Part shown: positions 3,995 through 46,905 of the stretch, one piece after another
Layout: every line of letters starts with the position of its first letter
How positions within the stretch are numbered: the first letter of the stretch is position 1
DNA from: a virus
Direction: 5' to 3' (one strand)
IMG/VR virus record: IMGVR_UViG_3300023176_000477
Span: 1 to 50,478 of that record
Length of the DNA stretch: 50,478 bases
Notes under the pieces: generated by a model
Told to the model about the DNA's origin: nothing
Databases searched by the model: none
What the model saw: the letters and a program-made list of their open reading frames with translations, nothing else
Translations under genes and position numbers: made by a program

Positions 3995-4011
3995 TTAAAC
4001 TCCTATAATAA

Positions 4012-5178: not shown

Positions 5179-7160
5179 TATGCTCCGTATCTCATTATAC
5201 CCCAAGCAGCAATACCTGGTGTATGTATTGATGTTACTTCTTCAATAGTACCTTGTCTAGTACCACGCACTGTAATAATAGCATACATTGTATCACTTCC
5301 AATTACTTCATTAGATTGTATAGGATAACTTATTTGCTCTACTACACCACGAATAATTTCTTGTGGTTCAAATATTTCTAATGTTACTGAATCACCTTCT
5401 TTAGCACGTAATGCTTTATATAAAGTATCTCCAAGACCTTTTACTTTTAATGGTTTTCTACCAGGTCTTTCTACTCTATCACTAATGTTTATAGGTATTT
5501 GTGCTACTACAAGTTCTGGTCTTGCTAATGCACGAAACTGTACTGATTTGACTTTAGGAGTTGACATACCATCTGTACTTCTAAGTATGACTTTACCTAT
5601 AATATATCTAGAAACTTCTGCTATTTGTTTTTCTTCGTCACCTGTACCACCAAGTTGTGTTAAAGCATTAGTAAACGTAGCAGACTCAGGTGCATCTAAA
5701 TCTTCAAATCTAGTTGAATATTGTAAACTTACTTGTGTATCTGCAGGCATTGTAACAGTAGATACTTCTGCACCTACAAACTGTTTAGATTCTGCAGTAA
5801 AAAAATCTGCAGCAGATAACACTACATAACCTTCAGATTCATATGTAGATGTTTCTTTATATACATCAGAACCTTCAACTACTATTACAAATTTACCATC
5901 AGATTGTGTAATACCTGATACATAACTATTACCAACTGTTTGTAAATCTCTAGCCAAACCACCTGTTGGTAGGTAATATCGCCACAAATTTACTTCATTA
6001 GTATCTTCTTTAACACCCATATACACACTATCACGGCTTACAAACATAGCGTGTGGTGTTGTATCTACGTTATCAACAACCCATTCTTTTACTAATTGTC
6101 TATTAGCAAGTACATATAAATCATCAGCATTAACAAGGTCTGCTCTGTATAACCTACCTACATCTCTTGTATTTTCTTTAGTACCAAAAAATATAATTCC
6201 TTCTGCAGCTGCAATAGAATGTATTTCTTCAAAAGGTATTTTTGTTTGTCCTTGATTTACAAATACACCAGATGACAATTTAAATGAATATATATTACCA
6301 TCAGTACTAGCTGTTAATACAACAGCTCCACCATCAACAATACCTGTTATTTCGTGTGTAGGTTCTACTTCTATTATTGCGTCAACAACAGCAAAAGCTG
6401 ATGCCCAGCTATCTGCAAATGCATCACCTTCCCATACATATTCTGCAGTACCATCATTACCAGTAACAAACAAAGTATTTTTAACAAACCATACACCTGT
6501 TAATCCACCTGTTGTATTAAAAGCTGTGTTATGTGTAGACCAACCGTGTCCATCTGGTTCATAATGTATAAACTCTGAGTTAGTATTAGTAGCATCAGCA
6601 GTAGTAAAATATACTGTGTTTCCAAATGCTGCAGCACCTGTAAAGTTATAAGTTGCACCATTAGTTGCAGCTAAAATAGCACTCCAAGTTTCTGTACTAG
6701 CATCATATTCGTGTACAGTTGTACCATCAGTGACGTATATATTACCGTTAGTAGTTTGTGTCATATAGTTATTGCTAGCACCAAAAGATAAACTTTCTGT
6801 AGCTGTCGTATATAACAAATGTATATGATATGCAGTTTCATCATCTCCGTGAAATACATCAATACCTTTGCTATCCCAAAATCTATTAACATCATCTGGT
6901 TTACCATCAGCTCTATGTGCAGTATCTAATCCTTGACCTGCAGAAAAATTGTTTCTTGAATATATACGTCCTAAGTTAGAAGTAAAATCTTCAGGGTTTT
7001 GTTTGACGTTTACGTTTTGTCCTTGTTGTACATCAGATGATTGTATAGTCATTTCACGACCAGGACCTACAGCTGTACGTAAATATATATTATCTAACTT
7101 TATATCATAACCAAATCGTTTTGGATTACGAACATTAGAAGTTGATGCAACTCTAGCCAT
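5178..7160 (-). CDS. Large tail protein (nozzle/hub-like), 660 aa
   Basis: It begins MARVASTSNVRNPKRFGYDI and contains many beta-strand repeats of the NIYVTDGTTVHEYDA, NTVYFTTAD and GIIFFGTKENTR kind, which suggests a beta-propeller-like central part. A C-terminal domain follows (KPLKVKGLGDTLYKAL, ISYPIQSN, WGIMRYGA). The size and place after the connector fit a tail nozzle or hub of a short-tailed phage. The right copy (47771-49786) is almost identical except for a segment near residue 120. It overlaps both neighbours by TAATG. The exact family is uncertain. Confidence 0.7.
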   Translation of the reverse strand: MARVASTSNVRNPKRFGYDIKLDNIYLRTAVGPGREMTIQSSDVQQGQNVNVKQNPEDFTSNLGRIYSRNNFSAGQGLDTAHRADGKPDDVNRFWDSKGIDVFHGDDETAYHIHLLYTTATESLSFGASNNYMTQTTNGNIYVTDGTTVHEYDASTETWSAILAATNGATYNFTGAAAFGNTVYFTTADATNTNSEFIHYEPDGHGWSTHNTAFNTTGGLTGVWFVKNTLFVTGNDGTAEYVWEGDAFADSWASAFAVVDAIIEVEPTHEITGIVDGGAVVLTASTDGNIYSFKLSSGVFVNQGQTKIPFEEIHSIAAAEGIIFFGTKENTRDVGRLYRADLVNADDLYVLANRQLVKEWVVDNVDTTPHAMFVSRDSVYMGVKEDTNEVNLWRYYLPTGGLARDLQTVGNSYVSGITQSDGKFVIVVEGSDVYKETSTYESEGYVVLSAADFFTAESKQFVGAEVSTVTMPADTQVSLQYSTRFEDLDAPESATFTNALTQLGGTGDEEKQIAEVSRYIIGKVILRSTDGMSTPKVKSVQFRALARPELVVAQIPINISDRVERPGRKPLKVKGLGDTLYKALRAKEGDSVTLEIFEPQEIIRGVVEQISYPIQSNEVIGSDTMYAIITVRGTRQGTIEEVTSIHTPGIAAWGIMRYGA

Positions 7161-8170
7161 TAGGTTGGATACAATATACTATTTAATTGAACTGGTTCTG
7201 GGTATTTAGACCTTAAATTACTTCTAGCTTGTTGTATTAATAACTGTTGATATCTTAATAAACTACTGCTAATACTATTAGAACTACCTACAGGATAGTT
7301 TTGTGCAGCCATTTGTTCTGTAATATATCTTGCATCAACATTTTTAATATCTTTACCAACTAGCATTTGAGCAGCTACACCAGCCATAACAATTGGTTCA
7401 TACTCTGTTTCTAAACCTACACTAGATAATGTTGTTTCTTCTGATGTTGGTGCTACAAATTTCTTTTTAAAAGTTACATACACAGTATGACCTGCTGATA
7501 TACCCACAAACTGTACAGCATGAACTACGTTGGGACCTGAAGTATAAGTTTTAGTTCTTTCTGTTTGTGTATCATCAGTCCATACAAAAGGATTAGGTAA
7601 GTCAATCATTTCTATAGCTACACCATTATATTTAAGTCCTGTTTGGTCTGAGCCTGATTGCCAATCTGTATATTGTGATATAGCTTTTAATGGTGCTATT
7701 AAATAATTATTAGTATCTACGTCTGTACCATATGTACCAAGTAATTTATAACCTGTACTAGCAGTAAGTTCTATTGTTTCTACGGCAAATAATGTAGGAT
7801 AAAGATTTTTAATTTGGTCTGATACTGCATCATATACTGCTTGTCTTGTAAATGCAGGAGCTATTTTAATTATATCGTTTGCATCATGTGTAGTAGCAGT
7901 AGTACCTCTAACTCCACGTTCAACTGTTATTTCATTAGTAACGGCATTAAGAGATTTAGAAAACATTAATTCTCTATTAACTTCTATAATTGCACCAGCA
8001 CCTAATGCGTCTTCTTCTTCTGTAGAAAACAGACCTTCTTCATAGTTAATGGTGCTTTGTGTTGTAGTTGTTACATCACCAGTTAAATAAGAATAAGATT
8101 CAACAGAATCCATTGGCTCTAGGTATTCTCTAAATACCCTGTCTACTAGGTTGCCTATTGTGTCACTCAC
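7160..8170 (-). CDS. Head-tail connector / tail protein, 336 aa
   Basis: It starts MSDTIGNLVDRVFREYLEPM and includes a strand-rich section (TVERGVRGTTATTHD), a helical section (TRQAVYDAVSDQIKNLYPTLF) and a C-terminal helical region rich in Gln/Ser. The size, the location between the capsid and the large tail protein, and the mixed helical/beta character fit an adaptor or tubular tail protein; this is an inference from position. Its 3' two-thirds are repeated almost unchanged at 49786-50478. Confidence 0.65.
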   Translation of the reverse strand: MSDTIGNLVDRVFREYLEPMDSVESYSYLTGDVTTTTQSTINYEEGLFSTEEEDALGAGAIIEVNRELMFSKSLNAVTNEITVERGVRGTTATTHDANDIIKIAPAFTRQAVYDAVSDQIKNLYPTLFAVETIELTASTGYKLLGTYGTDVDTNNYLIAPLKAISQYTDWQSGSDQTGLKYNGVAIEMIDLPNPFVWTDDTQTERTKTYTSGPNVVHAVQFVGISAGHTVYVTFKKKFVAPTSEETTLSSVGLETEYEPIVMAGVAAQMLVGKDIKNVDARYITEQMAAQNYPVGSSNSISSSLLRYQQLLIQQARSNLRSKYPEPVQLNSILYPT

Positions 8171-22399: not shown

Positions 22400-24177
22400 T
22401 ACATACCACCAAATGCACCTGCAATTGAAGGTTGTCCACCCATCATTTGTTGTTGCATCATTTGTTGTTGTATCATCATTTCTTCTTCAGGTGTCATCTG
22501 AGGTTCTTGTGGAGTATAAAACTGTTTCATAATCTCTGTTATAGCAGTTGGATACTCGTAAATAGCAATAGCAGCCATTGTAGCTGCAGGGTCACCTTGT
22601 GCAGACCTAGCTAGTATAGAATCAAATAATACTTGTTCAGCTTTATTTTTACGTATACGTTCCTGTACTTTAGCTATATTCTCTAAACCATCAATGTTAT
22701 CTTGTAGTGTTTCTACGTCTATAACACCTGCTTGTAACAATTGCAACCCAGTTACAATTTTTTGTGGTTCATCAAATCCAGCCATAACACCATAGATACG
22801 TCTAGTTCTAAAGTCACCACCAATATCTTGTAATACATTATAGTTTTCACTAAATGCAGCACCATTAAGAAAACCAGCCATAGGTTTTTTAGATATGCCT
22901 TGTGAGTAAGATAATATTACATCCATCTCTAATCTCTTAGCATCCATCTGTACCATAGCTGATTTAATAACATCTCTATATTCTGAAATCATAAGTGACA
23001 TAGTGCTGTTTAATTCTGATAGTCCAGCACCAGTAACAAAACTATTAGGAGATTGGCTATCGTCAGTTACAGGATAACCACCTACCATACGCAATTGTCT
23101 TTCTAATCTATCTATCTGTTGAAACAATTGATACGGCATATTGTTCATTGGTTTAGAAACTTGTGTACCAGGAGCTAGATAATTAACCGCAAATCGACCT
23201 TTTCTATATTGTCCGGATTCTATCTCTCCTGATATGTTAGTTTCTGTAAACACACTGTCTTCCATAGCAATAGCTGACATAATGTTTATTTTTGCCATCA
23301 TTGCCATCAAACCTATTACGTGGTCGTATTGTCCTTTAAGCTGGTCAAAAGATACACGTTTCATAAATACAAATGGTGGAGTAGATAATACGTTAGGTAT
23401 AAAATCTAAAATCATATTACGTTCTGGGAATACAATGTATGTACCTCCCATGTCATAGTATTCAATAATTCTTACACCAGAGTATGTATTATCTTCCCAA
23501 GCTTGTTCTCTGTTATTTTCATAAGACAAAAATGGTGTAGCATTATCTTGTGCTTCTTCAGCATCTTCATCTTGTTTTAAAATTTGTTCTGCAAACTCTG
23601 GATAGATTTGTGCAAGTTTATATCTAGGTACACGTCTAATAACAGCCATTTCTCTTGGTTGTTGGTCAGGACCTAAGTTACCTACAAAAGTATCATAAGG
23701 GTCACGTAACTCTGCACTAGGATAAAAGAAACCATTAGTATCACGTTTAGTTGTAATAACCCAAGCACAGTAACCATAACCAGGTAACCATCTAGCTGCT
23801 TGTTGTAGTTGACCTAATAAGTTTTGTTTTTCATCATAGTTAGTAACAATACGTTCTAATTTTTCTGCACGTACTTTACTTCTAGTAGAATCATTTTCAT
23901 TAGGTACATCAACTCTAACTTGTGGTATACCTGAAATCTTTTGTGCAAGTCGGTCAATACCAGATTGCAACATATTAGGAGCTGGTAATAAATCAGCATC
24001 AGAGGTTTCCATTGTATTACCTAACAATGCTTTAATGCCATCTGCACCACCATTAAGAATAGCTTTTATTCTAGCTTTCTGTACTTGTCTTTCTTGTACT
24101 AACTTACCTGATGTAAGTTCAGCAGCGTTTCTAACTATCTCGTCATAAGTTTTAACATCTAAGTTTTCTATGCCCAT
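22399..24177 (-). CDS. Portal protein, 592 aa
   Basis: It follows TerL, overlaps it by 10 bases, and has the size and composition of a portal: helical N-terminal wing (residues 1-60), a middle domain with LRDPYDTFVGNLG and RVPRYKLAQIYPEF, a conserved stem-like stretch and a Met/Gln-rich flexible C-terminus (EEMMIQQQMMQQQMMGG). It forms the dodecameric DNA gate at one vertex, which TerL docks on. The assignment rests on position and general architecture rather than a single diagnostic motif. Confidence 0.82.
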   Translation of the reverse strand: MGIENLDVKTYDEIVRNAAELTSGKLVQERQVQKARIKAILNGGADGIKALLGNTMETSDADLLPAPNMLQSGIDRLAQKISGIPQVRVDVPNENDSTRSKVRAEKLERIVTNYDEKQNLLGQLQQAARWLPGYGYCAWVITTKRDTNGFFYPSAELRDPYDTFVGNLGPDQQPREMAVIRRVPRYKLAQIYPEFAEQILKQDEDAEEAQDNATPFLSYENNREQAWEDNTYSGVRIIEYYDMGGTYIVFPERNMILDFIPNVLSTPPFVFMKRVSFDQLKGQYDHVIGLMAMMAKINIMSAIAMEDSVFTETNISGEIESGQYRKGRFAVNYLAPGTQVSKPMNNMPYQLFQQIDRLERQLRMVGGYPVTDDSQSPNSFVTGAGLSELNSTMSLMISEYRDVIKSAMVQMDAKRLEMDVILSYSQGISKKPMAGFLNGAAFSENYNVLQDIGGDFRTRRIYGVMAGFDEPQKIVTGLQLLQAGVIDVETLQDNIDGLENIAKVQERIRKNKAEQVLFDSILARSAQGDPAATMAAIAIYEYPTAITEIMKQFYTPQEPQMTPEEEMMIQQQMMQQQMMGGQPSIAGAFGGM

Positions 24178-26081
24178 GGTGCTTCGTTTATCTCCGTCAT
24201 CTTATAATCTCCATAACTAGGATTATAATCTAATCCTATGTTGGCAGTATGCTCTTTTTGCATACGCCTAAAAACTTTCATTGGAAACCAACTAGCCATA
24301 ACTATGTCAGTCTTCTCTTTGTTTCGTTTAGAAACAGGTTTACCATCAAAGTATAACAGTTGTTGTCTGTATTTCTGTATTTTAGCATTAGATTCTCCAT
24401 CACCAACAGGTAGATGTATTCTTTTATCTTCAAACAAATCTGCCATAGCACCAACACCATACAATGGGTCATGTTTATTTTTACCTGTTAAATGACCTTG
24501 TACAGTTATACCAGTACGTAATGTAAATTCTTTTATTGCAGCATCTTGTCGTATAGCAGATTGAAATCCGTTTTCTTCTACTATCCAATGTCTACAATCG
24601 TACTCGTGTAACCATATTGCCATTTGGTCTAACGCAGCTCTAATACCACCACCACGTCTGTTTTCTAAATCAACTAAATACAACTCACCTCTGTATTGGT
24701 CTATACCCCAAAGTACAGATGCTTGGTAACCACTTGATGCAGGGTCTAGTCCAGCAACAAGATATAAGTTTTTATATACCTGCCCTAGTACTAAATCAGG
24801 TCGCATACATTGGTCAATCATGTTCATAGTAAATATTTGCGTACCTTCTACATATGCTTGATTAAAATAAACCATTTCAAATGTTTGCCTACCACCTGTA
24901 GATTCAGCAGAATGTAACCTAGACATTAACCATTTAAAAGTTCTTTTACCTGGCCATAACATACAATCAGTATGTTCTTCTTCTAAATGTTCTGGTATTT
25001 GACACTCTAATGCATGTGCAGTTTCTACTATGCTTGTAAAGTTATCTGATTCAAGTAAGTGGTTATATAAATCATCAGGGTGCTGTCTTGAACCAATTAC
25101 AACAACAGCAGTATGTTCCTCTTTACGACTAGATAATGTAGTAGTCCACCATTGTCTTGTACTTTCTCTAGCACCAGGTTGCATAGTAGTTTGGTGGTCT
25201 TCAATGTCGTCTGCAATAATTATGTCACAGTCACGTGATAGAATCTTACCACCCTTACCTACAGCAACCATAGTTGGTGATTTAATACCTGCAACTGTTC
25301 TAGTACCTACAGTAAATTGGTTTTGTGACCAGTTTTTACCTGACCTGTTATCTGGTTTAAATGATTGACCAGGTGGACAGAAATCTTCTCTAAGTTCTTC
25401 ATTAGTATCTAGTACGTCAAGTACAGCAGATAATGCGTTTTTAGCTATGTCTTCGTTACCACCTACCCACATAATACGTACGTTAGGGTTTTTACATATC
25501 TGATATACAGCAAAGTGTATTAATAACTCTGTCTTTCCATGTCGTGGGGGTGACAGTATCAATAATTCTTTACCGTGTTCTATAGAATCTATAATATTAT
25601 TAATCCAGTTAGTGTGAAAATCTGCGGTGTCATAGTGTTTTCCTAGTTCTGTTCTAAAGTATTTGTGTCGGAAGTTCGAAAAATTTTCTAATGCAGCTTC
25701 TGCTTCAGCTGATAGTTCCCAATCTTCTGCTGCTATTTCGTTTCTACTATCTATCTTGTAGGCAGCGAGCATGCGACTGACAGTAGCTGGGGTGCAGCCA
25801 AGGAGGGAAGCTGCGTTTGCTACTGTCATGTCGCCAGTTGCAACTTCTTCGGCTATACCTTCGCTTACGAAAGCTCGGTAATACTGCCCTCTGCGTACAG
25901 AAGCATAATCGCCTGTATCAGCATTATACTCTTTATTGATGGGCTTGGTGTCCACTTTGTCATTATGTCGCTTGTCACGTGCAAATTGACGCTTCTGGCA
26001 CGTTCCTGAACAGAATTTTGTTTGTCTACCTCGTAATTTCTTTCGACAACCTTCTGCTATACAGATTACATTCTTTGACAC
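24168..26081 (-). CDS. terL: Terminase large subunit with N-terminal zinc-finger and HTH extension, 637 aa
   Basis: The ATPase has Walker A SPPRHGKT (residues 177-184), Walker B IIIADD (287-292) and a downstream VVVIGSRQHPDD segment. The nuclease part begins LVAGLDPASSG (D446) with further acidic residues (LYLVDLENRRG, HWIVEENGF). It cuts concatemers and pumps DNA into the procapsid. Unusually, the first 115 residues add a four-cysteine unit (C7, C12, C24, C28) and a helix-turn-helix-like stretch (MTVANAASLLGCTPATVSRM). No separate small subunit is seen, so the extension may supply DNA recognition. The start is GTG at 26081, about 31 nt downstream of the predicted transcript start. Confidence 0.93.
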   Translation of the reverse strand: MSKNVICIAEGCRKKLRGRQTKFCSGTCQKRQFARDKRHNDKVDTKPINKEYNADTGDYASVRRGQYYRAFVSEGIAEEVATGDMTVANAASLLGCTPATVSRMLAAYKIDSRNEIAAEDWELSAEAEAALENFSNFRHKYFRTELGKHYDTADFHTNWINNIIDSIEHGKELLILSPPRHGKTELLIHFAVYQICKNPNVRIMWVGGNEDIAKNALSAVLDVLDTNEELREDFCPPGQSFKPDNRSGKNWSQNQFTVGTRTVAGIKSPTMVAVGKGGKILSRDCDIIIADDIEDHQTTMQPGARESTRQWWTTTLSSRKEEHTAVVVIGSRQHPDDLYNHLLESDNFTSIVETAHALECQIPEHLEEEHTDCMLWPGKRTFKWLMSRLHSAESTGGRQTFEMVYFNQAYVEGTQIFTMNMIDQCMRPDLVLGQVYKNLYLVAGLDPASSGYQASVLWGIDQYRGELYLVDLENRRGGGIRAALDQMAIWLHEYDCRHWIVEENGFQSAIRQDAAIKEFTLRTGITVQGHLTGKNKHDPLYGVGAMADLFEDKRIHLPVGDGESNAKIQKYRQQLLYFDGKPVSKRNKEKTDIVMASWFPMKVFRRMQKEHTANIGLDYNPSYGDYKMTEINEAPWA

Positions 26082-26105
26082 TATTAACTAACTTTCCGTA
26101 GATGT

Positions 26106-26133
26106 TTGTATAGTGAGAATTATATGCTATAGT
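26106..26133 (+). promoter_or_regulatory. Rightward early promoter
   Basis: TTGTAT (26106-26111) and TATAGT (26128-26133) are 16 bases apart, with a TGC just before the -10 box (extended -10 form). Transcription would start near 26140 and give the early unit a leader of about 600 nt that is rich in hairpins. The boxes are host sigma-70 type, in keeping with the lack of a phage RNA polymerase. Confidence 0.55.
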
Positions 26134-26147
26134 CACATTAAATACAA
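26119..26147 (-). promoter_or_regulatory. Leftward late promoter
   Basis: On the minus strand TTGTAT (26142-26147) and a perfect TATAAT (26119-26124) are 17 bases apart, and the predicted start is near 26112, just upstream of TerL. It physically overlaps the rightward promoter. Both share an inverted repeat GTTTGTAT (26104-26111) / ATACAAAC (26142-26149), so one protein could control both directions. Confidence 0.6.
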
Positions 26148-26405
26148 ACACTAAACAATAGTATTTTGTTACAGGTAAAGCGGTGACCGGGACATCAAAA
26201 GCTGCTCACAGGTAAAACTGTACACTAGAAAGACAAAGGCAGTACCCAAGGACATTAAAAAAGGTTTAGTCAGGACTGGTACATACATTGCCCGCTCCTG
26301 CCCAGAAAGGCAACTACTATAAGGCTTTTATCTGTACGAAAGATTACCAACATATTTTTTAGACCTTACGTTAATATATAGAACACCTTAGATTAACATT
26401 AGGTA

Positions 26406-26497
26406 GTCAAACTAACAGAAGTAAGCATAAATACTGCATACCTATACAGAATTTTATTCTGTATGCAGTATTATGCTTTCTAGTTCTGTAGTTTGAC
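26406..26497 (+). ncRNA. 92-nt near-perfect hairpin in the early leader
   Basis: The outer arms GTCAAACT / AGTTTGAC, then ACAGAA / TTCTGT, AAGCATA / TATGCTT, ATACTGCATAC / GTATGCAGTAT (partly) and inner ACAGAAT / ATTCTGT pair almost continuously around a TTT loop. As RNA it would be very stable; as DNA it could form a cruciform. It is not followed by a T tract, so it is not an ordinary terminator. Regulatory RNA or origin structure are the options. Confidence 0.6.
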
Positions 26498-26498
26498 T

Positions 26499-26572
26499 CA
26501 GAATGCAGGCATTCTGTAGTTAAATGCAATACCCTACCGGTTACTTTAATTCATTGATATCTGCATTTAACT
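26499..26572 (+). repeat. Two further inverted repeats in the early leader
   Basis: CAGAATG / CATTCTG with a four-base loop (26499-26516) is followed by AGTTAAATGCA / TGCATTTAACT, an 11-bp perfect match enclosing 33 bases (26518-26572). They follow the 92-nt hairpin head to tail, so the whole leader is a chain of stem-loops. Confidence 0.6.
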
Positions 26573-26697
26573 TACCTATGTTAATCTGGATAGCTTATCA
26601 TCTTTAGTATGTTTGTTAGGTGTCCGACAAGTTGTATCTACTGCTTGCTTTAATGCTTCCGACACAATAAATTATCATACTCTCACGTCTTTCTATA

Positions 26698-26734
26698 GTT
26701 CTTTAGAAATTCTTTATGAATTTCTCTAAAGAAC
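26698..26734 (+). promoter_or_regulatory. TTTAT-loop hairpin 1
   Basis: GTTCTTTAG-AAATT pairs with AATTT-CT-CTAAAGAAC around C-TTTAT-G. It ends 19 bases before the ATG of the first early gene (26754). No T tract follows, so it is not a terminator. It is the first of five hairpins of this form in the early unit. Confidence 0.7.
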
Positions 26735-26753
26735 AGAAAGGACAGTGAGAGAT

Positions 26754-26945
26754 ATGATTAATTGTTTATTGTGCGGTGAAGCATTCACAAGCAAGGGCAG
26801 TAGAATACATGACTTGTCATGGGACACTGCTAACAAAACATACAAGAAAGATGACAAAGGTATGCCGAAGGCATACGCTTTGGCTATCCACAGAAACTGT
26901 TATTGGGATAAATACAATGCAGAGAAAGAAAGTGTAGCACAATAG
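26754..26945 (+). CDS. Early small cysteine/histidine protein, 63 aa (CxxC...HxxC)
   Basis: It starts MINCLLCGEAFTSKG (ATG at 26754; an in-frame GTG lies at 26745, but it leaves only two bases after AGGA). The pairs Cys-x2-Cys at the N-terminus and HRNC near residue 46 suggest a zinc-binding treble-clef-like unit. The same pattern occurs in the two following early proteins at 26979 and 27617. As the first early gene it is a candidate for a host-takeover or counter-defence factor; this is an inference. Confidence 0.7.
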   Translation: MINCLLCGEAFTSKGSRIHDLSWDTANKTYKKDDKGMPKAYALAIHRNCYWDKYNAEKESVAQ

Positions 26946-27553: not shown

Positions 27554-27590
27554 GTCTTTCTTTTTTTCTTTACGAAAAATAAAGAAAGAC
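27554..27590 (+). promoter_or_regulatory. TTTAC-loop hairpin 2
   Basis: GTCTTTCTTT-TTTTC pairs with GAAAA-AT-AAAGAAAGAC around a TTTAC loop, with a one-base bulge. It ends 26 bases before the ATG of 27617, with AAGGAAGGAAATAT as ribosome-binding site between them. The stretch upstream (27431-27553) holds further small inverted repeats such as GCCGACAT / ATGTTGGC. Confidence 0.65.
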
Positions 27591-28741: not shown

Positions 28742-28778
28742 GTTCTTTTCTTTTTCTTTATGGAAAATAGAAAAGAAC
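28742..28778 (+). promoter_or_regulatory. TTTAT-loop hairpin 3
   Basis: GTTCTTTTCT-TTTTC pairs with GGAAAA-TAG-AAAAGAAC around TTTAT. It ends 28 bases before the ATG of 28807, with AAGAAAGGGAATAT between. It has the same design as the hairpins at 26698, 27554, 30333 and 34682. Confidence 0.7.
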
Positions 28779-30080: not shown

Positions 30081-30395
30081 AGTCAATGCAGCAATACTGT
30101 AATTGAAACGCAGAGCTATTTACATTGTTGACTTCCCCTTTGTCAACCGATAGACCATAATGTAGATAGCTTGTAGCACATAGGTAGTAACTCAATTTCC
30201 AACTTCTACTTGTGTGTTACAAGCTATCTATGAATGTTTTAGAAACGATGTAATATCTACAACTACAATTCATAGATGCAAAGCTAGTTATGTGTATTCA
30301 TGCCCAGTCTAAACAACATAATTAGCGTCTATGTATGTAAGCCTTTCTCTTTATGAGCCAAAGGCTTACATACTATAAAAAAAGAAAGGAGATAT
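30081..30395 (+). other. Structured intergenic region before the AAA-VWA cluster
   Basis: No credible ORF. It contains GTTGAC / GTCAAC (30127-30147), a 13-bp perfect repeat TAGATAGCTTGTA / TACAAGCTATCTA (30163-30230) and CATAGA...TTATGT / ACATAA...TCTATG (30271-30333), then a TTTAT-loop hairpin. The density of pairing suggests an RNA leader or a separate small RNA. Confidence 0.55.
30333..30373 (+). promoter_or_regulatory. TTTAT-loop hairpin 4
   Basis: GTATGTAAGCCTTT-CTC pairs with GAG-CC-AAAGGCTTACATAC around TTTAT; only two bases are unpaired in the stem. It ends 22 bases before the ATG of 30396, with AAGAAAGGAGATAT between. It is the strongest of the five hairpins and stands in front of the AAA-VWA cluster. 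Confidence 0.72.
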
Positions 30396-33166: not shown

Positions 33167-33193
33167 TTGACTAAATATCAATGAAAGTATAAT
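33167..33193 (+). promoter_or_regulatory. Second early promoter, possibly giving a leaderless mRNA
   Basis: TTGACT (33167-33172) and a perfect TATAAT (33188-33193) are 15 bases apart (16 if TTTGAC is used). The predicted start is at about 33200, next to an in-frame ATG at 33201. No Shine-Dalgarno sequence precedes 33192. It follows directly after the T9 tract, so a new transcript begins where the previous one ends. Confidence 0.5.
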
Positions 33194-33443
33194 GAATAGT
33201 ATGAATATAGATGATATGCTTTACGAAGCAGAAAATGGTAAAAGAAGTCCGATACTTGACAGGATAACTGAAGAAGCTGAACCTTTTTGGCATGGCTGCG
33301 AAGAACGTGTTAAGTCAGGACGCAACATAAAACCATATGTTGTTTCAAGATTATTGAAAGAACAATATGGTATCAAAATAAGTGAGAGTGCAGTGCGTAA
33401 TCACTTTGAAAACTTGGCGAATCTAGGTTCACAATATGAGTGA
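33192..33443 (+). CDS. Small DNA-binding-type protein, 83 aa (or 80 aa from 33201)
   Basis: The sequence starts MNSMNIDDMLYEAENGKRSP, and a helix-turn-helix-like stretch KPYVVSRLLKEQYGIKISESAVRNHF follows near residues 47-72. Because the -10 box covers the first ATG, the second ATG (33201) is a better start, giving 80 aa. It overlaps the next gene by 8 bases. It is a likely DNA-binding accessory of the phosphoesterase-annealing group; a terminase small-subunit-like role is possible but unproved. Confidence 0.65.
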   Translation: MNSMNIDDMLYEAENGKRSPILDRITEEAEPFWHGCEERVKSGRNIKPYVVSRLLKEQYGIKISESAVRNHFENLANLGSQYE

Positions 33444-34681: not shown

Positions 34682-34718
34682 GTATTTGTTTTTCTCTTTA
34701 TGAGAAAAAAACAAATAC
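34682..34718 (+). promoter_or_regulatory. TTTAT-loop hairpin 5
   Basis: GTATTTGTTTTT-CTC pairs with GAG-AAAAAAACAAATAC around TTTAT, with two extra A in the right arm. It ends 13 bases before the ATG of the Rad52-like gene, with CAGAAGGGAATGTT between. Its core CTC-TTTAT-GAG is the same as in hairpin 4. Confidence 0.7.
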
Positions 34719-35298: not shown

Positions 35299-35840
35299 TG
35301 CAGGACTTAAACTTTATAGTAAATACTATACAGTCTATGACTGCATCAGTACAAAATAAAGAAACTCTAAACAAAATCATAGGTACTGCTAATCAATACG
35401 CAGTTACTATGAAGTTTCCTGCTGATAAAACAACATGGTCAGATAAACAATTAACAAAGTATTTCGATATGATTGAAAGACTTGTTGATATGCCTGTTGA
35501 GTATACACAAGATGAGTTTGATAGCTTATCAATACAAGAAAAACTATCAGCAGTTGGTATAGAGTCAGAAGATATCACACCAGGATTACAAGATTCTAGT
35601 GGAGTGATAGGAGGAATAGTAAATAAAATGGAACAACAAAATAAGTATAGAGATGACTTAAAATGTCCATATTGTGGAGAAATGGTTTATGATAATCGTA
35701 ACTCTAAAAGGTCAGATAAAAGTCCAGACTTTACATGTAGCACAAATGACCCTGCAAAATGCGGAGGACATAGTGGTAAGTGGCGTAAGTCTTGGTGGTT
35801 AGACAACTCAGATATACCTGAAGAATGGGGTATTAACTAA
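35298..35840 (+). CDS. Zinc-ribbon protein, 180 aa
   Basis: The N-terminal 100 residues are helical (MQDLNFIVNTIQSMTASVQN). The C-terminal part holds a four-cysteine ribbon: KCPYCGEMVYD, then FTCSTNDPAKCGGHSGKWRK. It could recognise single-stranded or damaged DNA beside the annealing protein it is coupled to by TAATG. No family name is assigned. Confidence 0.68.
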   Translation: MQDLNFIVNTIQSMTASVQNKETLNKIIGTANQYAVTMKFPADKTTWSDKQLTKYFDMIERLVDMPVEYTQDEFDSLSIQEKLSAVGIESEDITPGLQDSSGVIGGIVNKMEQQNKYRDDLKCPYCGEMVYDNRNSKRSDKSPDFTCSTNDPAKCGGHSGKWRKSWWLDNSDIPEEWGIN

Positions 35841-36112
35841 TGATACCTGAATACTTTAGAGGCAGAGAAATACCTGCTTTTATTAAATCTAAAACACAGT
35901 TAGTTGCTTGGGCATTAACTGAGTTTATTGATGATGAACCAATTAGTAATTGGGAGTTTGTGGCAGAACTACATTGCCATAGGTTTGGTGGAATAATACA
36001 TAATCTTAGAGCAGAAGGTTATGAAATTACTACCTTACCTAGTAAGAAACGTGGGTTAGTACATTACTACTGTACTAAATTACCTACTAAGAAAGCTGCT
36101 ACCATTAGCTAA
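35840..36112 (+). CDS. Winged-helix protein, 90 aa
   Basis: It starts MIPEYFRGREIPAFIKSKTQ; ISNWEFVAELHCHRFGGIIH-x-LRAEGYEI fits a winged helix-turn-helix of the type found in many phages, with the wing at KKRGLVHYYCTKLP. It is a likely transcription or replication regulator. Coupled to the genes on both sides by TAATG. Confidence 0.65.
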   Translation: MIPEYFRGREIPAFIKSKTQLVAWALTEFIDDEPISNWEFVAELHCHRFGGIIHNLRAEGYEITTLPSKKRGLVHYYCTKLPTKKAATIS

Positions 36113-38234: not shown

Positions 38235-39299
38235 TTATCCTAACTTAGAAACTAATCTTATTATTTTTGGAATACCTTTTTTAGATTTCCAAGCTTGAAA
38301 TTCTTTAAGACCTTTTTCATAATTAACTTTAGTTAATTTTTCATCAATCCATTTTTTCTCACCAATAGGTCCACGAATCATATGGTCTATTATAGCCGCA
38401 GGAGTTTTAGCAGTATCACCAACGATAGTTGCTGCATACTGTGATAATGAACTGTAATTTCTACTTATATCAGATGCTTCATCAGTAAAAGAAATCATTT
38501 TTTGTAATTGTCTTTTAGCTTCTTTTTTACTTGCATCATCAGGAAAATATTTATTTTCTAATTCATTATTTGAAAGTGGTTGTCTTCGTTCAGAGGAAAA
38601 TATATTATCATTTACTGCCTCATCAACTTCATCTAATAAACCACTTTTAACTTCATTAATAAAATCATAAACAGTCCCTTTAAATTCCATAGCAAAATCT
38701 CTTGTTCTAGCTTTACGTGCTTGTAGTTCTTGATTGACACCAGCGACTGTATTAGGCATTGGTTTATCTTTTAAAAATTCCATAGTTTCTTCATTCCAAC
38801 CTTTAATACCTCTAAAACTACCTGTATCAAATGCTCTAGTTTTATTTTCTGATACTACTTTATCTGGTAATCTAAACACTTCTTCAAAAAATGTATCTGG
38901 ATTAGTTGGGTCATAAGAGAAACCAAACTTAGCTAATTTATCACTTAATGATGCAGGTTTAGAAAACTTAGGATTAATTTGTGGACCACCAACTCCACCT
39001 GGGTTTAAACGTTCACGTTCTCTAGCTCTAAAATAAGATACAGTATCGCTTGTTTGTTTATCAGCTTTAACTTTATCATAAGCTGCTTCACCTTCTGCTT
39101 CTATAACATCATCATATTCACCTGCACCAACTTCGTAATATTGATAATTTGCAGTTTCTGCCCAGTCAGCTGATTTGTTAGCTTGATTTTTAATGTAATC
39201 TGTAGAAGACTTACCATCTTTTTTAGGGTCATAATTAGGATTATCATAATAATCTACATTCTGACCACCTGTATTATTGCCGCCTTTAAATGCTACCAT
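38235..39299 (-). CDS. Late protein of unknown role, 354 aa
   Basis: It starts MVAFKGGNNTGGQNVDYYDN, with a disordered, Asp/Asn-rich N-terminus and a helical, charged remainder (NEVKSGLLDEVDEAVNDNIF). No catalytic motif is visible. The size and position between lysis genes and the end of the late unit suggest a minor virion protein. Confidence 0.6.
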   Translation of the reverse strand: MVAFKGGNNTGGQNVDYYDNPNYDPKKDGKSSTDYIKNQANKSADWAETANYQYYEVGAGEYDDVIEAEGEAAYDKVKADKQTSDTVSYFRARERERLNPGGVGGPQINPKFSKPASLSDKLAKFGFSYDPTNPDTFFEEVFRLPDKVVSENKTRAFDTGSFRGIKGWNEETMEFLKDKPMPNTVAGVNQELQARKARTRDFAMEFKGTVYDFINEVKSGLLDEVDEAVNDNIFSSERRQPLSNNELENKYFPDDASKKEAKRQLQKMISFTDEASDISRNYSSLSQYAATIVGDTAKTPAAIIDHMIRGPIGEKKWIDEKLTKVNYEKGLKEFQAWKSKKGIPKIIRLVSKLG

Positions 39300-41616: not shown

Positions 41617-41758
41617 TTGATTCCCACACTTTACACCAACCTCCTGGTGCTACTTGTTCTTTGAATGCAATGCAATAGTTATTAATATAATGTTTGCAAT
41701 TAGAACAATACTGACCAGTTGTATTACTTCTGTTAACATATGCTCCTGGTAACGCCAT
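41591..41758 (-). CDS. Small four-cysteine protein, 55 aa
   Basis: It encodes MALPGAYVNRSNTTGQYCSN, then Cys-x2-Cys (CSNC), Cys (NNYC) and GGWC with VWESIEIRSIKS at the end. It is the complete form of the gene cut at base 1. The cysteine order recalls small metal-binding proteins; cluster type unknown. It reads through the start of the DUF5675 gene, which may account for the weak TTG there. Confidence 0.7.
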   Translation of the reverse strand: MALPGAYVNRSNTTGQYCSNCKHYINNYCIAFKEQVAPGGWCKVWESIEIRSIKS

Positions 41759-41886
41759 TACTTTTTCTTACGAATCTTTTTAATTTTATTGTTATGTGTT
41801 TTAGCATAAATAAAATTTTTAGTTTCACGAGTGACTGTACCTTCATAGGTTTTGTCACCCCATTTCCAACTTACTGTTTTAGCCAT
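41758..41886 (-). CDS. Small basic protein, 42 aa
   Basis: Right-hand counterpart of 139-267: MAKTVSWKWGDKTYEGTVTR and a lysine-rich end, same length. It is coupled on both sides by TAATG. The function is unknown. Confidence 0.7.
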   Translation of the reverse strand: MAKTVSWKWGDKTYEGTVTRETKNFIYAKTHNNKIKKIRKKK

Positions 41887-42179
41887 TACCACTTAACCTT
41901 ATGTGACCAATACTTAGCAGATAATTTAGATTTAGGTTTACCTTGTGCATTATGTCTAGCATAATACGACTTTTTACGTGCTTTATCTTTTTTACTTTTA
42001 GGATTTTTACCAGCACCTTTAACACCTTGTTGTCCAAATCTAATTAACTTATACTTGTTACCTTCTTTAGCCATAACAACATGTGATTTTGTTTTGTGAC
42101 TAGGTGTAAGCTTAGGTTTATTAACACCTTTAAGGCCGTTCTTTTTCATAATAGCTTTAACTCTATCTGGAACTGCCAT
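41886..42179 (-). CDS. DUF6321-like basic protein, 97 aa
   Basis: Counterpart of 269-565, with the same blocks GLKGVNKPKLTPSH, SHVVMA, KLIRFGQQGVK and YWSHKVKW; the lysine-rich middle part differs most. It occurs in both copies, beyond the exchanged cassette, so it belongs to the conserved core of the genome. Confidence 0.8.
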   Translation of the reverse strand: MAVPDRVKAIMKKNGLKGVNKPKLTPSHKTKSHVVMAKEGNKYKLIRFGQQGVKGAGKNPKSKKDKARKKSYYARHNAQGKPKSKLSAKYWSHKVKW

Positions 42180-42294
42180 TATATCTCCTGTTTTCTCGTT
42201 TAACTAAGTATAATGATAGTATATTACTAAAGCTAGTTATTAGTGCAGTTATCACTGCCGTGCTTACAATTACAAATTTGTACAAACGAACCAT
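42163..42294 (-). CDS. Small single-pass membrane protein, 43 aa
   Basis: MVRLYKFVIVSTAVITALIT and then SLYLVKRENRRYNGSSR. It has the same length as its counterpart at 549-680 with conservative changes in the hydrophobic segment. Unlike the left copy it is not coupled by ATGA, and only a weak purine stretch precedes the ATG at 42294. The overlapping Cys-rich frame upstream has the better ribosome-binding site. Confidence 0.5.
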   Translation of the reverse strand: MVRLYKFVIVSTAVITALITSFSNILSLYLVKRENRRYNGSSR

Positions 42295-42319
42295 CTTCTT
42301 TTTCTTTTACCATACACAT
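42233..42319 (-). CDS. Candidate 28-aa cysteine-rich peptide
   Basis: ATG at 42319 follows AAATAGGAGGATAGT, a strong site. The product is MCMVKEKEDGSFVQICNCKH plus GSDNCTNN. The QICNC-x2-GS-x-NC core is shared with the shorter left version (619-684). It overlaps the 43-aa membrane protein in another frame. Either one is expressed from the other's leader, or both are made. Confidence 0.4.
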   Translation of the reverse strand: MCMVKEKEDGSFVQICNCKHGSDNCTNN

Positions 42320-42320
42320 A

Positions 42321-42524
42321 CTATCCTCCTATTTTAAATAATAACTCTGTAAAATTAGATTCTAACATATCTAGTTCACTATTCATTTCCATAACCATAG
42401 CATCACAAGCGTTCTGATGTGATTTAATTTCTTCTATCGAGTTGAATACCCAACCAAATGCACTAATTACTATTGTTGCAATTATTGGAATGATTGTTTT
42501 TGTGTCTATTTTTAATGTTGCCAT
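42321..42524 (-). CDS. Small membrane protein with C-terminal helix, 67 aa
   Basis: Counterpart of 677-880: MATLKIDTKTIIPIIATIVI and the same acidic helix (SELDMLESNFTELLFKIGG). The membrane segment has changed more than the helix, so the helix is likely the constrained, interacting part. Confidence 0.75.
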   Translation of the reverse strand: MATLKIDTKTIIPIIATIVISAFGWVFNSIEEIKSHQNACDAMVMEMNSELDMLESNFTELLFKIGG

Positions 42525-42531
42525 TATTCTC

Positions 42532-42705
42532 CTACATTAAGGCAGCAACAACAACACCACCTACTGCTACCAATAATCCTAATACTTTATAAAATTCTGC
42601 TTTGTCTAGTTTTGCGTCTAGTTTACTATCTATTTCATCAAGGCGTTTTAATACCATATCTAACATCTCCTTCTGTGTATAACCATTACCGAGATAGTCA
42701 GACAT
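42532..42705 (-). CDS. Small protein with C-terminal membrane segment, 57 aa
   Basis: Counterpart of 888-1061, almost identical. The start overlaps the 52-aa gene by TAATG. Tail-anchored design: amphipathic helix, then hydrophobic C-terminus. Confidence 0.75.
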   Translation of the reverse strand: MSDYLGNGYTQKEMLDMVLKRLDEIDSKLDAKLDKAEFYKVLGLLVAVGGVVVAALM

Positions 42706-42863
42706 TATGGAAGGTCATCCTCTGACATATAGATGTCATCACTCCAGGTGTATGCTTTATCGTAGTAGTTACGATTTTCCCAATCCCAAGTACTTAATCT
42801 TTTAAGAGTTGATACAATATCTTTTAAAAAAATACCTAATAAAAACCCAATTATAAAATCCAT
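42705..42863 (-). CDS. Small protein with N-terminal membrane segment, 52 aa
   Basis: Counterpart of 1061-1219 with a few substitutions. Upstream, the shared sequence ATAAGCAGGATTATAACAT continues to about 42880 and then stops, which marks one border of the exchanged cassette. Confidence 0.75.
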   Translation of the reverse strand: MDFIIGFLLGIFLKDIVSTLKRLSTWDWENRNYYDKAYTWSDDIYMSEDDLP

Positions 42864-42881
42864 AAGCAGGATTATAACATA

Positions 42882-43118
42882 TTATAACTTTTTGGAAATC
42901 ATTTTAGAACTTCTACCAGTTTTAGTATTTTTATTTTTTTCTATAACTTCAGAAGTTAAATATTTTTTAATATCTTCTTCTTTTAATATTAATTCATTAG
43001 TTGCATAACTAACAATTTTTTCTACTTCTTCAGGATTGTGCATATCTATTTCTTTATCAACTAAAATATCATCAATCCATAAACTAAATTTAACTGAATA
43101 ACTTATATATTCTTTCAT
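42882..43118 (-). CDS. Small cassette protein, 78 aa, right copy only
   Basis: It starts MKEYISYSVKFSLWIDDILV, then charged helices (HNPEEVEKIVSYATNELIL) and a basic end (TKTGRSSKMISKKL). No counterpart exists in the left copy. It overlaps the preceding gene by ATGA. The role is unknown; it travels with the exchanged cassette. Confidence 0.6.
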   Translation of the reverse strand: MKEYISYSVKFSLWIDDILVDKEIDMHNPEEVEKIVSYATNELILKEEDIKKYLTSEVIEKNKNTKTGRSSKMISKKL

Positions 43119-43840
43119 TCTATAATCCTTTCTTTTATTTTAGCTAAAGTTTTATTTAACATTTTACTTTCGTGAAATCTAGCATATCTATTTATTAACG
43201 GTACATTGCTTTCCCAAGAACTTGCAGTACTACAAACATTCATAATTTTTGCTAAATCATTTGACATTTCAAACATTTTAAATTTAATTTTTTTATTTGT
43301 TAAAAAATTAATAAAAGCTAAAGGTTCATTTTGTTTAATAATAAATTCATCTACATTTGACCACAAGTTAAATTCTACTTGTATAGGTCTAAACCATTTA
43401 CCAATATTATATTGTCCAGGAGTTACTGAACCATATTGCATATGAGGTGCATTAATAAAATAAGGAGCTGTAAATTGAACTTCTAAACTTTCATCAGCAA
43501 ATAATATTATTGGATAACTATATTCTAATAATATTTGATTATTTAATTGTGGTTCTCTTTTTATTGTTGCACTTAAAGAATTTTTACCAGTAGATAAAGC
43601 AACGTTTGTTATTTTATAACTAGATTCTATAGGATTTTCTAACACATATAAATTTTTAGATAAGTTTTGATAAGCAGTACAAGATAAATAAGCTCTATTA
43701 TTTAGTTCTTTACTACGAGTTTTATTTATATTTTTATTTAATAAACTACTTAAACTAACAGGTTCTTTATAAAGTATTGACCAATCTTCTGTTTGATGTA
43801 AATTATCAGGACTTGCATAATATACAGTTATTTCTTTCAT
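43115..43840 (-). CDS. Cassette beta-rich protein, extra member, 241 aa
   Basis: It starts MKEITVYYASPDNLHQTEDW. The block TPGQYNIGKWFRPIQ and the following hydrophobic stretch match the VPG-x-F-x-I-x2-W-x-R-x-IN block of 1228-1923 and 43837-44523, so this is a third, diverged member. There is no CPA motif; a CTAYQN segment lies where that would be. It is found only in the right copy. Its role is likely structural or receptor-related, by position. Confidence 0.65.
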   Translation of the reverse strand: MKEITVYYASPDNLHQTEDWSILYKEPVSLSSLLNKNINKTRSKELNNRAYLSCTAYQNLSKNLYVLENPIESSYKITNVALSTGKNSLSATIKREPQLNNQILLEYSYPIILFADESLEVQFTAPYFINAPHMQYGSVTPGQYNIGKWFRPIQVEFNLWSNVDEFIIKQNEPLAFINFLTNKKIKFKMFEMSNDLAKIMNVCSTASSWESNVPLINRYARFHESKMLNKTLAKIKERIIE

Positions 43841-44523
43841 AATAATTTATTAGGTCTTTTATTAATTATGTTATTAATTATAGGTCTAACATTTTTATAG
43901 TAACTTACAATATTGTTACTGTATTTATAATATTTATTTATATTATCTGTACTATCTATATAATTTAAATCTACTTTGTAATTGAACATTAAGTTAGCAA
44001 ATGATTTACCAAGTGTTAATGTTACAGTTGCTGATTTATCTGTTGTTTGCATATAAGTAGGATTTATTTCTCTTATCCAATTATTAATATAAAAACCTCC
44101 AGGTACAAATACACAATTATCATAAGTTTTTTCATCAGGTGGTAACATAGTAATTTCAATATCTTTAGCATCATCAGTAGCAAACACTAAATAAGTATGC
44201 AATTGCAAAACAGCTCTACCATTATGTAGCTGTACATTAATTATATGATTAAATACATCACTGACTTCATCTGTTACTTGCATATCTTTATTATTAAAAT
44301 TCCAATAAGCAAATGGTTTTGCATTGTTATCAAGACCAAAAGTAATTTCTACAGTGTATGGAGATAATAAGTTATACAATTTATTATGCGTAGATTTAAT
44401 AGCAGGACAACCAAAGTCAATTGTTTTTCTTTTAATAATTTCAGGTAACAAAAACTTAGGTATTATTGAGTTAGGACTTTGCGTGTAAGATACTTTATGT
44501 TTTTTTTTATCATTAAATATCAT
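43837..44523 (-). CDS. Cassette beta-rich protein, 228 aa
   Basis: Best counterpart of 1228-1923: FGCPAIKSTHNKLYNLLSPY aligns with its CPAVSSVNNRLF region, and ITMLPPDEKTYDN plus FVPGGFYINNWIREINPTY with its ITLPP and VPGAFNINLWIRPIN blocks. Most other residues differ. It ends in a basic tail (NKRPNKLL). The conserved blocks probably form the fold and the variable loops the binding surface. Confidence 0.68.
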   Translation of the reverse strand: MIFNDKKKHKVSYTQSPNSIIPKFLLPEIIKRKTIDFGCPAIKSTHNKLYNLLSPYTVEITFGLDNNAKPFAYWNFNNKDMQVTDEVSDVFNHIINVQLHNGRAVLQLHTYLVFATDDAKDIEITMLPPDEKTYDNCVFVPGGFYINNWIREINPTYMQTTDKSATVTLTLGKSFANLMFNYKVDLNYIDSTDNINKYYKYSNNIVSYYKNVRPIINNIINKRPNKLL

Positions 44524-45250
44524 ATTTACGTTTTTTAAAATATCCTTTACTAAAACTTCTATGTGCTAAATATTGTGATTTAATAACTTTATTTTTAAGT
44601 TCTTCATCCATAGGTTTCATTTCTACTTTTGTATCAGTTCTTTTAAATGGAATGTAATAACATAGTGGTGTTCCAGCTTTTATATACACTTCATCTTTAT
44701 CACTAACATAAAATATTTGTGGATTAACTTCGTGATGAATATCAATATCTATAACACCATATGGTACATACCAATCATCCATTTGGTCATAATGATAAAA
44801 CATTGGTAACTGCATTAAACTATAACCAGGAGGACCTATTATTTGTATTGGATTTACAAATTTAAATACTTTTTTAATTGGACTATTTATGTGTTGTATC
44901 ATTTGACTATCGTGATGTATTTCTATTTCAAATGCTTCATTAGCAATTTTCCAATAATTAATATCGTGATTATCTTTAGCTACAGAAAACCACATATCTA
45001 CAGGTGCAGGTAATACATAACCTAAATTAAATATATCAGCAAAACTAGGACAATATTTTACAGTTCTACCATTAGGTATTATTTCTTTTCCTACAACAGG
45101 AAATGACAAACCTTCTTCATTTATATCTCTTGGGATATTTTTCCACCAAGGTGGTATAAATTTATTAGCTGGTTGTAAATGCACATCTAATGATGAATAA
45201 ACACCCATATTAAATGTACAGGTTATTATTTTATCTTTTTTGAATTTCAT
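44513..45250 (-). CDS. DUF6065-like protein, 245 aa
   Basis: Counterpart of 1923-2612. It contains the same chain of blocks: FIPPWWKNIPRD, VKYCPSFADIFNLGYVLPAP, D-x-WFSV, IHHDSQM, FKFVNPIQIIGPPGYSLMQL, GVIDIDIHHE and KAGTPLCYYIPFKR. The two WW residues and the D-I-D repeat make it closer to typical DUF6065 proteins than the left copy. Function unknown. Confidence 0.72.
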   Translation of the reverse strand: MKFKKDKIITCTFNMGVYSSLDVHLQPANKFIPPWWKNIPRDINEEGLSFPVVGKEIIPNGRTVKYCPSFADIFNLGYVLPAPVDMWFSVAKDNHDINYWKIANEAFEIEIHHDSQMIQHINSPIKKVFKFVNPIQIIGPPGYSLMQLPMFYHYDQMDDWYVPYGVIDIDIHHEVNPQIFYVSDKDEVYIKAGTPLCYYIPFKRTDTKVEMKPMDEELKNKVIKSQYLAHRSFSKGYFKKRKYDI

Positions 45251-45276
45251 AGTTCCACCTTACTATAGTTAATATT

Positions 45277-45651
45277 TTATTCTTGAACTTCCCATTGTTG
45301 TAGTTCTTCATTCCAATGTTTATAAACACCTACAGGTTCAACTGGATATTCAACAGGTGCTACCCATTCAGCATTATCAACATCTAATGTCCAACTATCA
45401 AAAGGTTTTGGAGGCATAAATATATCGTGTTCTCTAATATAAAGATACCCTTCACTAGCATAGTTACCACGTATATTATTATTATAAGAAGTTTTTAACC
45501 AAATTGTTTCTTCACCATATAATGATTTACAAAAAGCAATACCTGCTTCTTCTGTTTCTAATTGTGTTACAGGGTCTAAGTTGTCATTATCATTAACTGC
45601 AATAACTCTTAATACATTATCTTGGTTATCTAATTCTGCGTAATAAGCCAT
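45277..45651 (-). CDS. Adhesin-adjacent protein, probable tail-fibre accessory, 124 aa
   Basis: MAYYAELDNQDNVLRVIAVN, then TSYNNNIRGNYASEGYLYIR, FMPPKPFDSWTLD and WVAPVEYPVEP. The block order is the same as in 2634-3053, but the left copy has an added C-terminal stretch. Variation matches that of the adhesin next to it, consistent with a dedicated chaperone or a joint receptor-binding unit. Confidence 0.65.
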   Translation of the reverse strand: MAYYAELDNQDNVLRVIAVNDNDNLDPVTQLETEEAGIAFCKSLYGEETIWLKTSYNNNIRGNYASEGYLYIREHDIFMPPKPFDSWTLDVDNAEWVAPVEYPVEPVGVYKHWNEELQQWEVQE

Positions 45652-45653
45652 AG

Positions 45654-46535: not shown

Positions 46536-46543
46536 TTAAACTC

Positions 46544-46876
46544 CTAAGCTGTTATTACTGTACCAAATGCACTAAAACTTACATCTGCTGTGCTAGCTGT
46601 TGCTTTAAGAACATCACCATCAGCAAGTGTTATACCTAATGTAAGAAATAATGTATCGTTTGCAGGAACTGGTACATCTTTAGAAATGTAATGTTCATCA
46701 CCTGCTGTTTCTCCTGCAGGTACAACTTGCAAGTCATAAGTTTTTTCTGCTGATGACCTATTGCAAATTACAACAGTAGAAACAATTACTTCTCCGTCTT
46801 GGTCAGGTATTAAATCAACAGGTGCGCTTGTAAAAGCGTCTGCTGTTTGTCCTAGTACTTTATATGCGTTTGCCAT
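46544..46876 (-). CDS. Beta-sandwich virion protein, 110 aa
   Basis: Counterpart of 4012-4341: MANAYKVLGQTADAF at the start and STADVSFSAFGTVITA at the end, with a more different middle. An AATTGGAGATAAAAT ribosome-binding site is kept. Structural by position. Confidence 0.7.
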   Translation of the reverse strand: MANAYKVLGQTADAFTSAPVDLIPDQDGEVIVSTVVICNRSSAEKTYDLQVVPAGETAGDEHYISKDVPVPANDTLFLTLGITLADGDVLKATASTADVSFSAFGTVITA

Positions 46877-46905
46877 ATTTTATCTCCAATTATTTTTCTA
46901 TTATA

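Follow-up and report, generated by a model that had tools for sequence, protein, structure and literature searches.

Predicted overlapping divergent promoters and a conserved pseudoknotted RNA in the only divergent gap of an uncultured phage genome

We found that positions 26106–26147 of the window, i.e., the whole 50,478-base stretch of viral DNA that was analysed, very likely hold overlapping divergent sigma-70-type promoters of which the rightward one is functional. The leftward predicted promoter is probably functional as well. In addition, a conserved structured RNA follows the rightward promoter; the original prediction, which had proposed the promoter pair as a compact early/late switch, overlooked this RNA. 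The covariation among relatives makes it nearly certain that the RNA is a conserved fold. As the best explanation of the whole, to which we assign a probability of roughly 0.5, we suggest that the two promoters are mutually exclusive and that the RNA would act in cis on the early transcript.

The window is a single virus contig. Its main genes run leftward at 269–26081, rightward from 26745 to approximately 37,000 and leftward again from 37242 to the end, so that the record has a single divergent gap, the 663-base stretch between genes at 26082–26744, and a single convergent point. The terminase (PHROG 38) and an SU10-like capsid protein are encoded left of the gap, and small proteins, an AAA ATPase, a phosphoesterase, a lysozyme-like protein and a winged-helix protein are encoded right of it. 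Pfam and/or PHROGs scans of 53 window proteins recognised no phage RNA polymerase, sigma factor or antitermination protein, consistent with the earlier proposal that the switch needs no phage RNA polymerase. No tRNA was found in the window.

The contig ends were redundant with variation: 4796–7852 and 47389–50478 are 94.8% identical, and the partial gene at 49786–50235 matches the end of the protein at 7160–8170 with 99.3% identity. Because of this redundancy, we infer that the genome is circular or circularly permuted with a length of approximately 42 kb, and that the assembly ran past its start into a second tail-module allele. Such wrap-around assembly is the probable source of the redundant ends, and the tail region would be hypervariable. 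The two tail-module alleles occupy window positions 1–8170 and 41621–50478, and two of their gene pairs share only 31–39% protein identity.

With the terminase as query, we retrieved 80 relatives from viral contigs and a further six from genome contigs. The rows of the alignment were found by the motif CATATAATT together with a nearby -35-like string. This anchor was present in 75 of the set formed by the window and the 80 terminase relatives, and the six without it begin in the terminase gene or no more than approximately 65 nt from its start. Another seven did not span the full 345-base stretch, and merging of identical rows left 52. L084 and L083, which were added by hand, are among the 52 rows; L085 and L087, which do not contain the motif, are outside them. 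This choice of anchor forces the leftward -10 box and the TG to be conserved in these 52 rows. For a freer count, 181 records from an RNA-pattern search and from the terminase-based search were merged to 77 distinct contexts, the majority of which came from the RNA-pattern search. The features in and around the promoter region are as follows, with fractions of 52 referring to the aligned rows.

24168–26081, minus strand: terminase large subunit, first gene of the leftward operon (PHROG 38, E 2.8e-66).
26103–26111 and 26142–26150, no strand assigned: inverted repeat TGTTTGTAT/ATACAAACA enclosing both promoters, with perfect 9-base arms in the window.
26106–26111, plus strand: predicted rightward -35 box TTGTAT; TTG invariant in 52/52, with TTGCGT, TTGCTT, TTGCAT and TTGCCT in relatives.
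26119–26124, minus strand: predicted leftward -10 box TATAAT, in 52/52 with rows anchored on CATATAATT.
26125–26133, plus strand: predicted rightward extended -10, TGC-TATAGT; TG, T-12, A-11 and T-7 invariant in 52/52.
26142–26147, minus strand: predicted leftward -35 box, TTGTAA in 36 and TTGTAT in 16 of 52; overlaps the 5' end of the rightward RNA.
26745–26945, plus strand: first rightward ORF, with GTG at 26745 and the likely start at ATG 26754.

We checked the promoter letters on both strands, and they were letter for letter as originally written. The rightward promoter (plus strand) consists of TTGTAT at 26106–26111, N16 and TATAGT at 26128–26133, and the leftward promoter (minus strand) consists of TTGTAT at 26147–26142, N17 and TATAAT at 26124–26119; three bases separate the two -10 boxes. 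TGC at 26125–26127, which had been overlooked, makes the rightward site an extended -10 promoter. The predicted starts are at approximately 26140 on the plus strand and 26112 on the minus strand. Because these starts are approximately 28 bp apart, the geometry indicates that the two sites would exclude each other, in agreement with the original claim that polymerase can occupy only one of them at a time.

Both -35 boxes match TTGACA at only three of six positions, and a simple consensus scan omits the pair. The pattern TTGTAT-N15-18-TATANT is expected 1.37 times per window, and at least two occurrences were observed in 44 of 100 shuffles. Of 1000 dinucleotide-shuffled versions of the 663-base gap, 2 contained an opposed overlapping pair of such quality, as did 13 of 60 shuffles of the whole window; the real window contains a second such pair, inside a gene, at approximately 38,580–38,625. 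The promoter pattern alone was only moderately unusual. The pair is credible because it is placed in the only divergent gap of the record and is conserved in relatives. Terminase and structural genes lie to the left of the pair and early-type genes to the right.

In the 52 rows, the rightward -10 box was TATAGT in 46, TAACAT in 2, TACTAT in 2, TATATT in 1 and TATCAT in 1, and the base after TG was C in 29, G in 15 and T in 8. In the wider set, the extended -10 was present in 73 of the 77 distinct contexts, and TTG together with TAnnnT in 71 of them. The rightward site thus carries TGn before a -10 box with T-12, A-11 and T-7, as expected of a sigma-70 extended -10 promoter. TG and position -12 matter for sigma-70 contacts, and the constrained positions of the rightward site are among those with such a role. 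One study names -7 and -11 as the best-conserved -10 positions (PMC10268837). The leftward promoter, TTGTA(A/T)-N17-TATAAT, was present in all 52 CATATAATT-anchored rows with a spacing inside the 16–18 nt range. The two templates fitted the invariant columns fully (8/8 and 9/9) and jointly at shift 0 only, of 84 shifts; the leftward part of this test is affected by the CATATAATT anchoring. The comparison with relatives shows that both promoters are under constraint.

The elements of the RNA and of the DNA that follows it are listed below.

26138–26275, plus strand: RNA core (model R1); 26 pairs, 15 with two-sided changes, 99.3% of cells paired.
26150–26156 with 26264–26270, plus strand: helix P1, which closes the domain; 4 of 7 pairs changed on both sides, 97.4% paired.
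26174–26176 with 26244–26246, plus strand: three-pair helix GGU/ACC; its variable pair is GC in 45 and AU in 5.
26182–26185 with 26193–26196, plus strand: hairpin P2, with loop CGGG at 26188–26191; 3 of 4 pairs changed on both sides, 100% paired.
26201–26206 with 26238–26243, plus strand: helix P3, which encloses P4 and P5; 7 of 12 pairs changed on both sides, 100% paired.
26208–26211 with 26218–26221, plus strand: helix P4, inside P3.
26225–26226 with 26231–26232, plus strand: helix P5, inside P3.
26291–26294, plus strand: CCCG, the pseudoknot partner of the P2 loop, approximately 20 nt after P1.
26344–26362, plus strand: 3' element TTACCA-N-CATATTTTTT; TTACCA invariant in 52/52, with no stem directly before the T run.
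26363–26744, plus strand: untranslated leader, rich in hairpins, that precedes the first early gene; a 300-base stretch of it has a folding z of -4.4.

P1 begins approximately 10 nt 3' of the predicted rightward start. Across the six helices in 50 distinct rows, 154 cells showed two-sided changes, compared with 32.7 in shuffled data, and structures slid by 1–3 columns gave only 3–12 such cells. This comparison of relatives shows strong constraint on the fold. RNAalifold, supplied with nothing but the longer alignment, returned the same helices except GGU/ACC and added one short extra hairpin; 14 of the 25 pairs in its fold changed on both sides. The pseudoknot CGGG/CCCG was invariant in the main clade, with L083 off by one alignment column. 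Two separate compensatory changes were observed in distant relatives outside it: CAGG with CCUG in L129, L156 and L091, and CGGA with UCCG in L085. The folding energy of the RNA itself was ordinary (z -0.6 to +2.1 in 15 loci) and provided no support for structure.

Three other identities for this stretch were rejected. The best open frame in the window has stops and the stem variation is compensatory, which is not expected of coding read-through. A group I intron was dropped after inspection by eye, with no Rfam match. A riboswitch was set aside as there is no constant adjoining gene, the first window-like early ORF being 482–3745 nt away and not always the same one.

Downstream of the RNA, the stretch matching the 300-base leader showed z values from +1.7 to -12.4 in 15 loci and was strongly folded in most of them. 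On the plus strand, a consensus scan detected no terminator-like site from the end of the RNA to the first gene, and this makes an antitermination role for the RNA less plausible. No conserved gene directly follows the RNA, and the distances given above apply to the 59 of 63 loci with an ORF resembling an early ORF of the window. A conserved box, TTRACAT-NN-G-N-TAGTCA or near variants of it, lies 49 nt after TTACCA in most relatives (approximately 26393–26413 in the window); its possible roles include the -35 of a second promoter, an operator and a component of the RNA fold. A short Cys-rich ORF lies after the RNA core in L129 and L156, as though insertions were tolerated at this point of the leader.

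The rightward operon also contains five hairpins (26698–26734, 27554–27590, 28742–28778, 30333–30373 and 34682–34718) whose 15–17 bp stems differ, whereas all share the loop C-UUUAY-G and have two bulged bases on the 3' side. Each lies shortly before a start codon of the operon, and none was found antisense or in shuffles. Among 68 loci, the motif occurred only in the window and the close relative L166, and its appearance suggests a site of RNA binding or processing that is specific to this lineage.

A model derived from the 52 rows detected the RNA in 48 of 57 sources. The misses include L006, L026, L051, L070, L071, L074 and L086, which begin in the terminase gene or no more than approximately 65 nt from it, and L088, which holds only the end of that gene. 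In L087, whose terminase is 50% identical, the RNA was absent, the best result of an unfiltered scan being 9.9 bits (E 0.16). The RNA was present in sources with terminases 62–71% identical (L108, L124, L130 and L144) or 52–57% identical (L085, L091, L109, L113, L123, L129, L148, L154 and L156), and in L106, whose terminase is 35% identical over a fragment. The same divergent leader of L087 contains, at 2658–2738 on the minus strand, an 81-base tRNA-like tmRNA part without the messenger part (Rfam tmRNA, 52.6 bits); ARAGORN calls no tmRNA in L087.

In L085, L091, L129 and L156, other DNA lies between the RNA and the terminase, and there is no TATAAT at the place of the leftward -10 box. The rightward promoter of L085 is TTGCAT-N16-TATAGT preceded by TGT; the TATAAT of the leftward promoter is missing, and a different left-hand ORF has an ATG that overlaps the rightward -35 box. 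The RNA and the rightward promoter are the more stable part and outlast the leftward promoter, because they are kept in relatives without the leftward TATAAT such as L085. The overlapping leftward promoter belongs to the clade with terminases approximately 62% identical or more.

No Rfam 15 match above the curated cut-off was obtained for the window or for the RNA of seven divergent loci. Lax Rfam thresholds gave only below-cut-off matches elsewhere in 26000–26800 or on the other strand, and none in L129 at 4400–4800. Four query stretches holding the RNA had no DNA match among 50,697 phage records. By terminase protein, cultured phages were all below 30% identity, as judged from the best 20 of 56 and the best 10 of 267 matches. 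We found no description of the RNA in Rfam 15 or in a literature search that lay mostly outside subscription papers (including PMC7771536 and PMC2864571), which is no proof of absence. The labels of metagenome-assembled genomes (MAGs) holding relatives conflict (Actinomycetota, Gammaproteobacteria, Rhodobacteraceae and Flavobacteriaceae) and were not taken as host evidence. Genome G001, from which L083 and L085 derive, is a MAG labelled Actinomycetota with two phage contigs that carry the RNA. One of these contigs contains two RNA copies 43.8 kb apart, suggesting wrap-around assembly again, and the other contains two terminase genes.

We propose that host RNA polymerase would occupy one promoter or the other, but never both. 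From the leftward promoter, polymerase would read the terminase and structural genes; from the rightward promoter, it would enter the pseudoknotted RNA approximately 10 nt or less after the start and go on to the early-type genes. As a nascent leader in cis, the RNA may alter the behaviour of polymerase or the stability of the early transcript, ahead of the long hairpin-rich leader. Any timing would come from a regulator that favours one promoter while the other is occluded, and a switch would still depend on such a regulator. A cis role, which we hold tentatively and at slightly less than an even chance, is favoured because the early transcript would open with the RNA and continue into a long, mostly strongly folded leader, with no single conserved gene at that place. 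A more specific proposal, that a pseudoknotted RNA, with no phage protein, reprograms the host polymerase or protects the transcript at its 5' end while its promoter excludes the late promoter, seems rather unlikely. If true, it would represent a new phage RNA class, in which one 42-base site picks the direction of polymerase and arms it.

The main rival is almost as good as the cis role. A stand-alone trans-acting noncoding RNA might be made from its own promoter, with the early genes reached by read-through or from further promoters, and it might act by binding a protein, of the host or of the phage, or by base-pairing to targets. We consider this a serious possibility, with a lower probability than the cis role. 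The RNA would have its 5' end at the predicted start, it is kept where the nearby early genes differ, and the T run after TTACCA is conserved. The long distance to the first early ORF and the small Cys-rich ORF after the RNA in L129 and L156 point in the same direction. However, no terminator hairpin directly precedes the T run, no second copy of the RNA was found in the window, and no Rfam 15 family matches it.

It is improbable that only the rightward promoter is functional and that the leftward signals are by-products, with ACAAAC belonging to the 5' end of the RNA and ATTATA to an A+T-rich spacer. ACAAA was kept at the RNA 5' end in 77/77 contexts, even where the leftward -10 box was lost; therefore, its conservation is no proof of a -35 box. 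By comparison, ATTATA was present in the leftward -10 region in 67/77 contexts, absent in 10 and off position in at least two (L091 and L148), and the four relatives with other DNA before the terminase also fit a single functional promoter. However, TATAAT was letter-perfect in the 52 aligned relatives, and, of 81 records, none that had upstream DNA lacked it. No requirement for a fixed TATAAT on the opposite strand is known for the spacers of extended -10 promoters.

The original prediction also treated the inverted repeat as part of the switch. We consider it very unlikely that the repeat is an operator at which the winged-helix protein flips polymerase between the promoters, although the 9-base arms are perfect in the window and the HTH_39 protein is encoded in the rightward operon. 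Of the two candidate proteins named at the time, the winged helix at 35840–36112 was recognised as such (Pfam HTH_39, E 6.3e-6), and the HTH-like protein at 33192–33443 had no Pfam or PHROG match. Among the 52 relatives, 8-base arms were perfect in only 8, matched at 7 of 8 in 30 and at 4–6 of 8 in 14, and GTGA/TCAC was not kept. A repeat that is non-conserved in relatives had been named in advance as evidence against the switch; this is what was observed for the repeat, whereas the promoters stand. Each arm combines one promoter's -35 box with the stretch that the other promoter would transcribe first, and the right arm is also part of the RNA, whose ACAAA is kept in distant relatives without the leftward -10 box. 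An operator dyad should be kept in relatives, and this one was not. In view of this poor conservation, of the promoter geometry that explains the likeness of the arms and of the place of the right arm in the RNA, we do not read the repeat as an operator.

The phi29 pRNA is a phage RNA that is encoded apart from any protein gene and is needed with the packaging motor. The window RNA likewise lies apart from protein genes, and it differs in having no Rfam match. A packaging function of this kind is the least probable explanation: it would account for the RNA staying close to the terminase, which in all 14 divergent loci examined lies no more than 1.6 kb to its left, but this proximity could be a mere consequence of genome layout, L085, L091, L129 and L156 have other DNA between the two, and the phi29 packaging ATPase is of another class than the window terminase.

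Overlapping divergent promoters are already known; here, a single pair of them seems to control an entire phage genome, and does so in a large uncultured group. The RNA has strong covariation support while being absent from Rfam 15 and unmatched in the phage records searched. With the RNA on the early transcript and no antiterminator protein recognised, protein-free control of host polymerase would become directly testable beyond HK022.

Among known systems, the bidirectional promoters of bacteria have opposed polymerases that cannot bind together (PMC12825309) and one shared -10, with starts commonly 18 and also 10 or 23 bp apart (PMC12825309, PMC10268837). The window resembles them in having polymerase sites on opposite strands that would not be filled at once. 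It differs from them in having two separate -10 boxes and predicted starts at 26112 and 26140, outside the 7–25 bp separation that defines the shared -10 type. For such promoters in E. coli, little release of one site on loss of the other is reported where the promoters are weak (PMC12825309). GOLLD and ROOL are, like the window RNA, structured noncoding phage RNAs of unknown function; they often lie near tRNA islands and many GOLLD RNAs exceed 800 nt (PMC12286853), whereas the window RNA has neither tRNA neighbours nor an Rfam match. The nearest working analogue is HK022 put. Its putL element, a short way downstream of the early promoter PL, needs no protein factor to act on polymerase (PMC9378689), and the window RNA is likewise placed just after an early phage promoter and before early genes. 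The two folds differ in size and shape: put is approximately 70 nt with two stem-loops, whereas in the window RNA P1 closes a domain of approximately 120 nt, and the fold comprises six helices and a pseudoknot. The likeness would thus be one of working like put, rather than of membership in its family.
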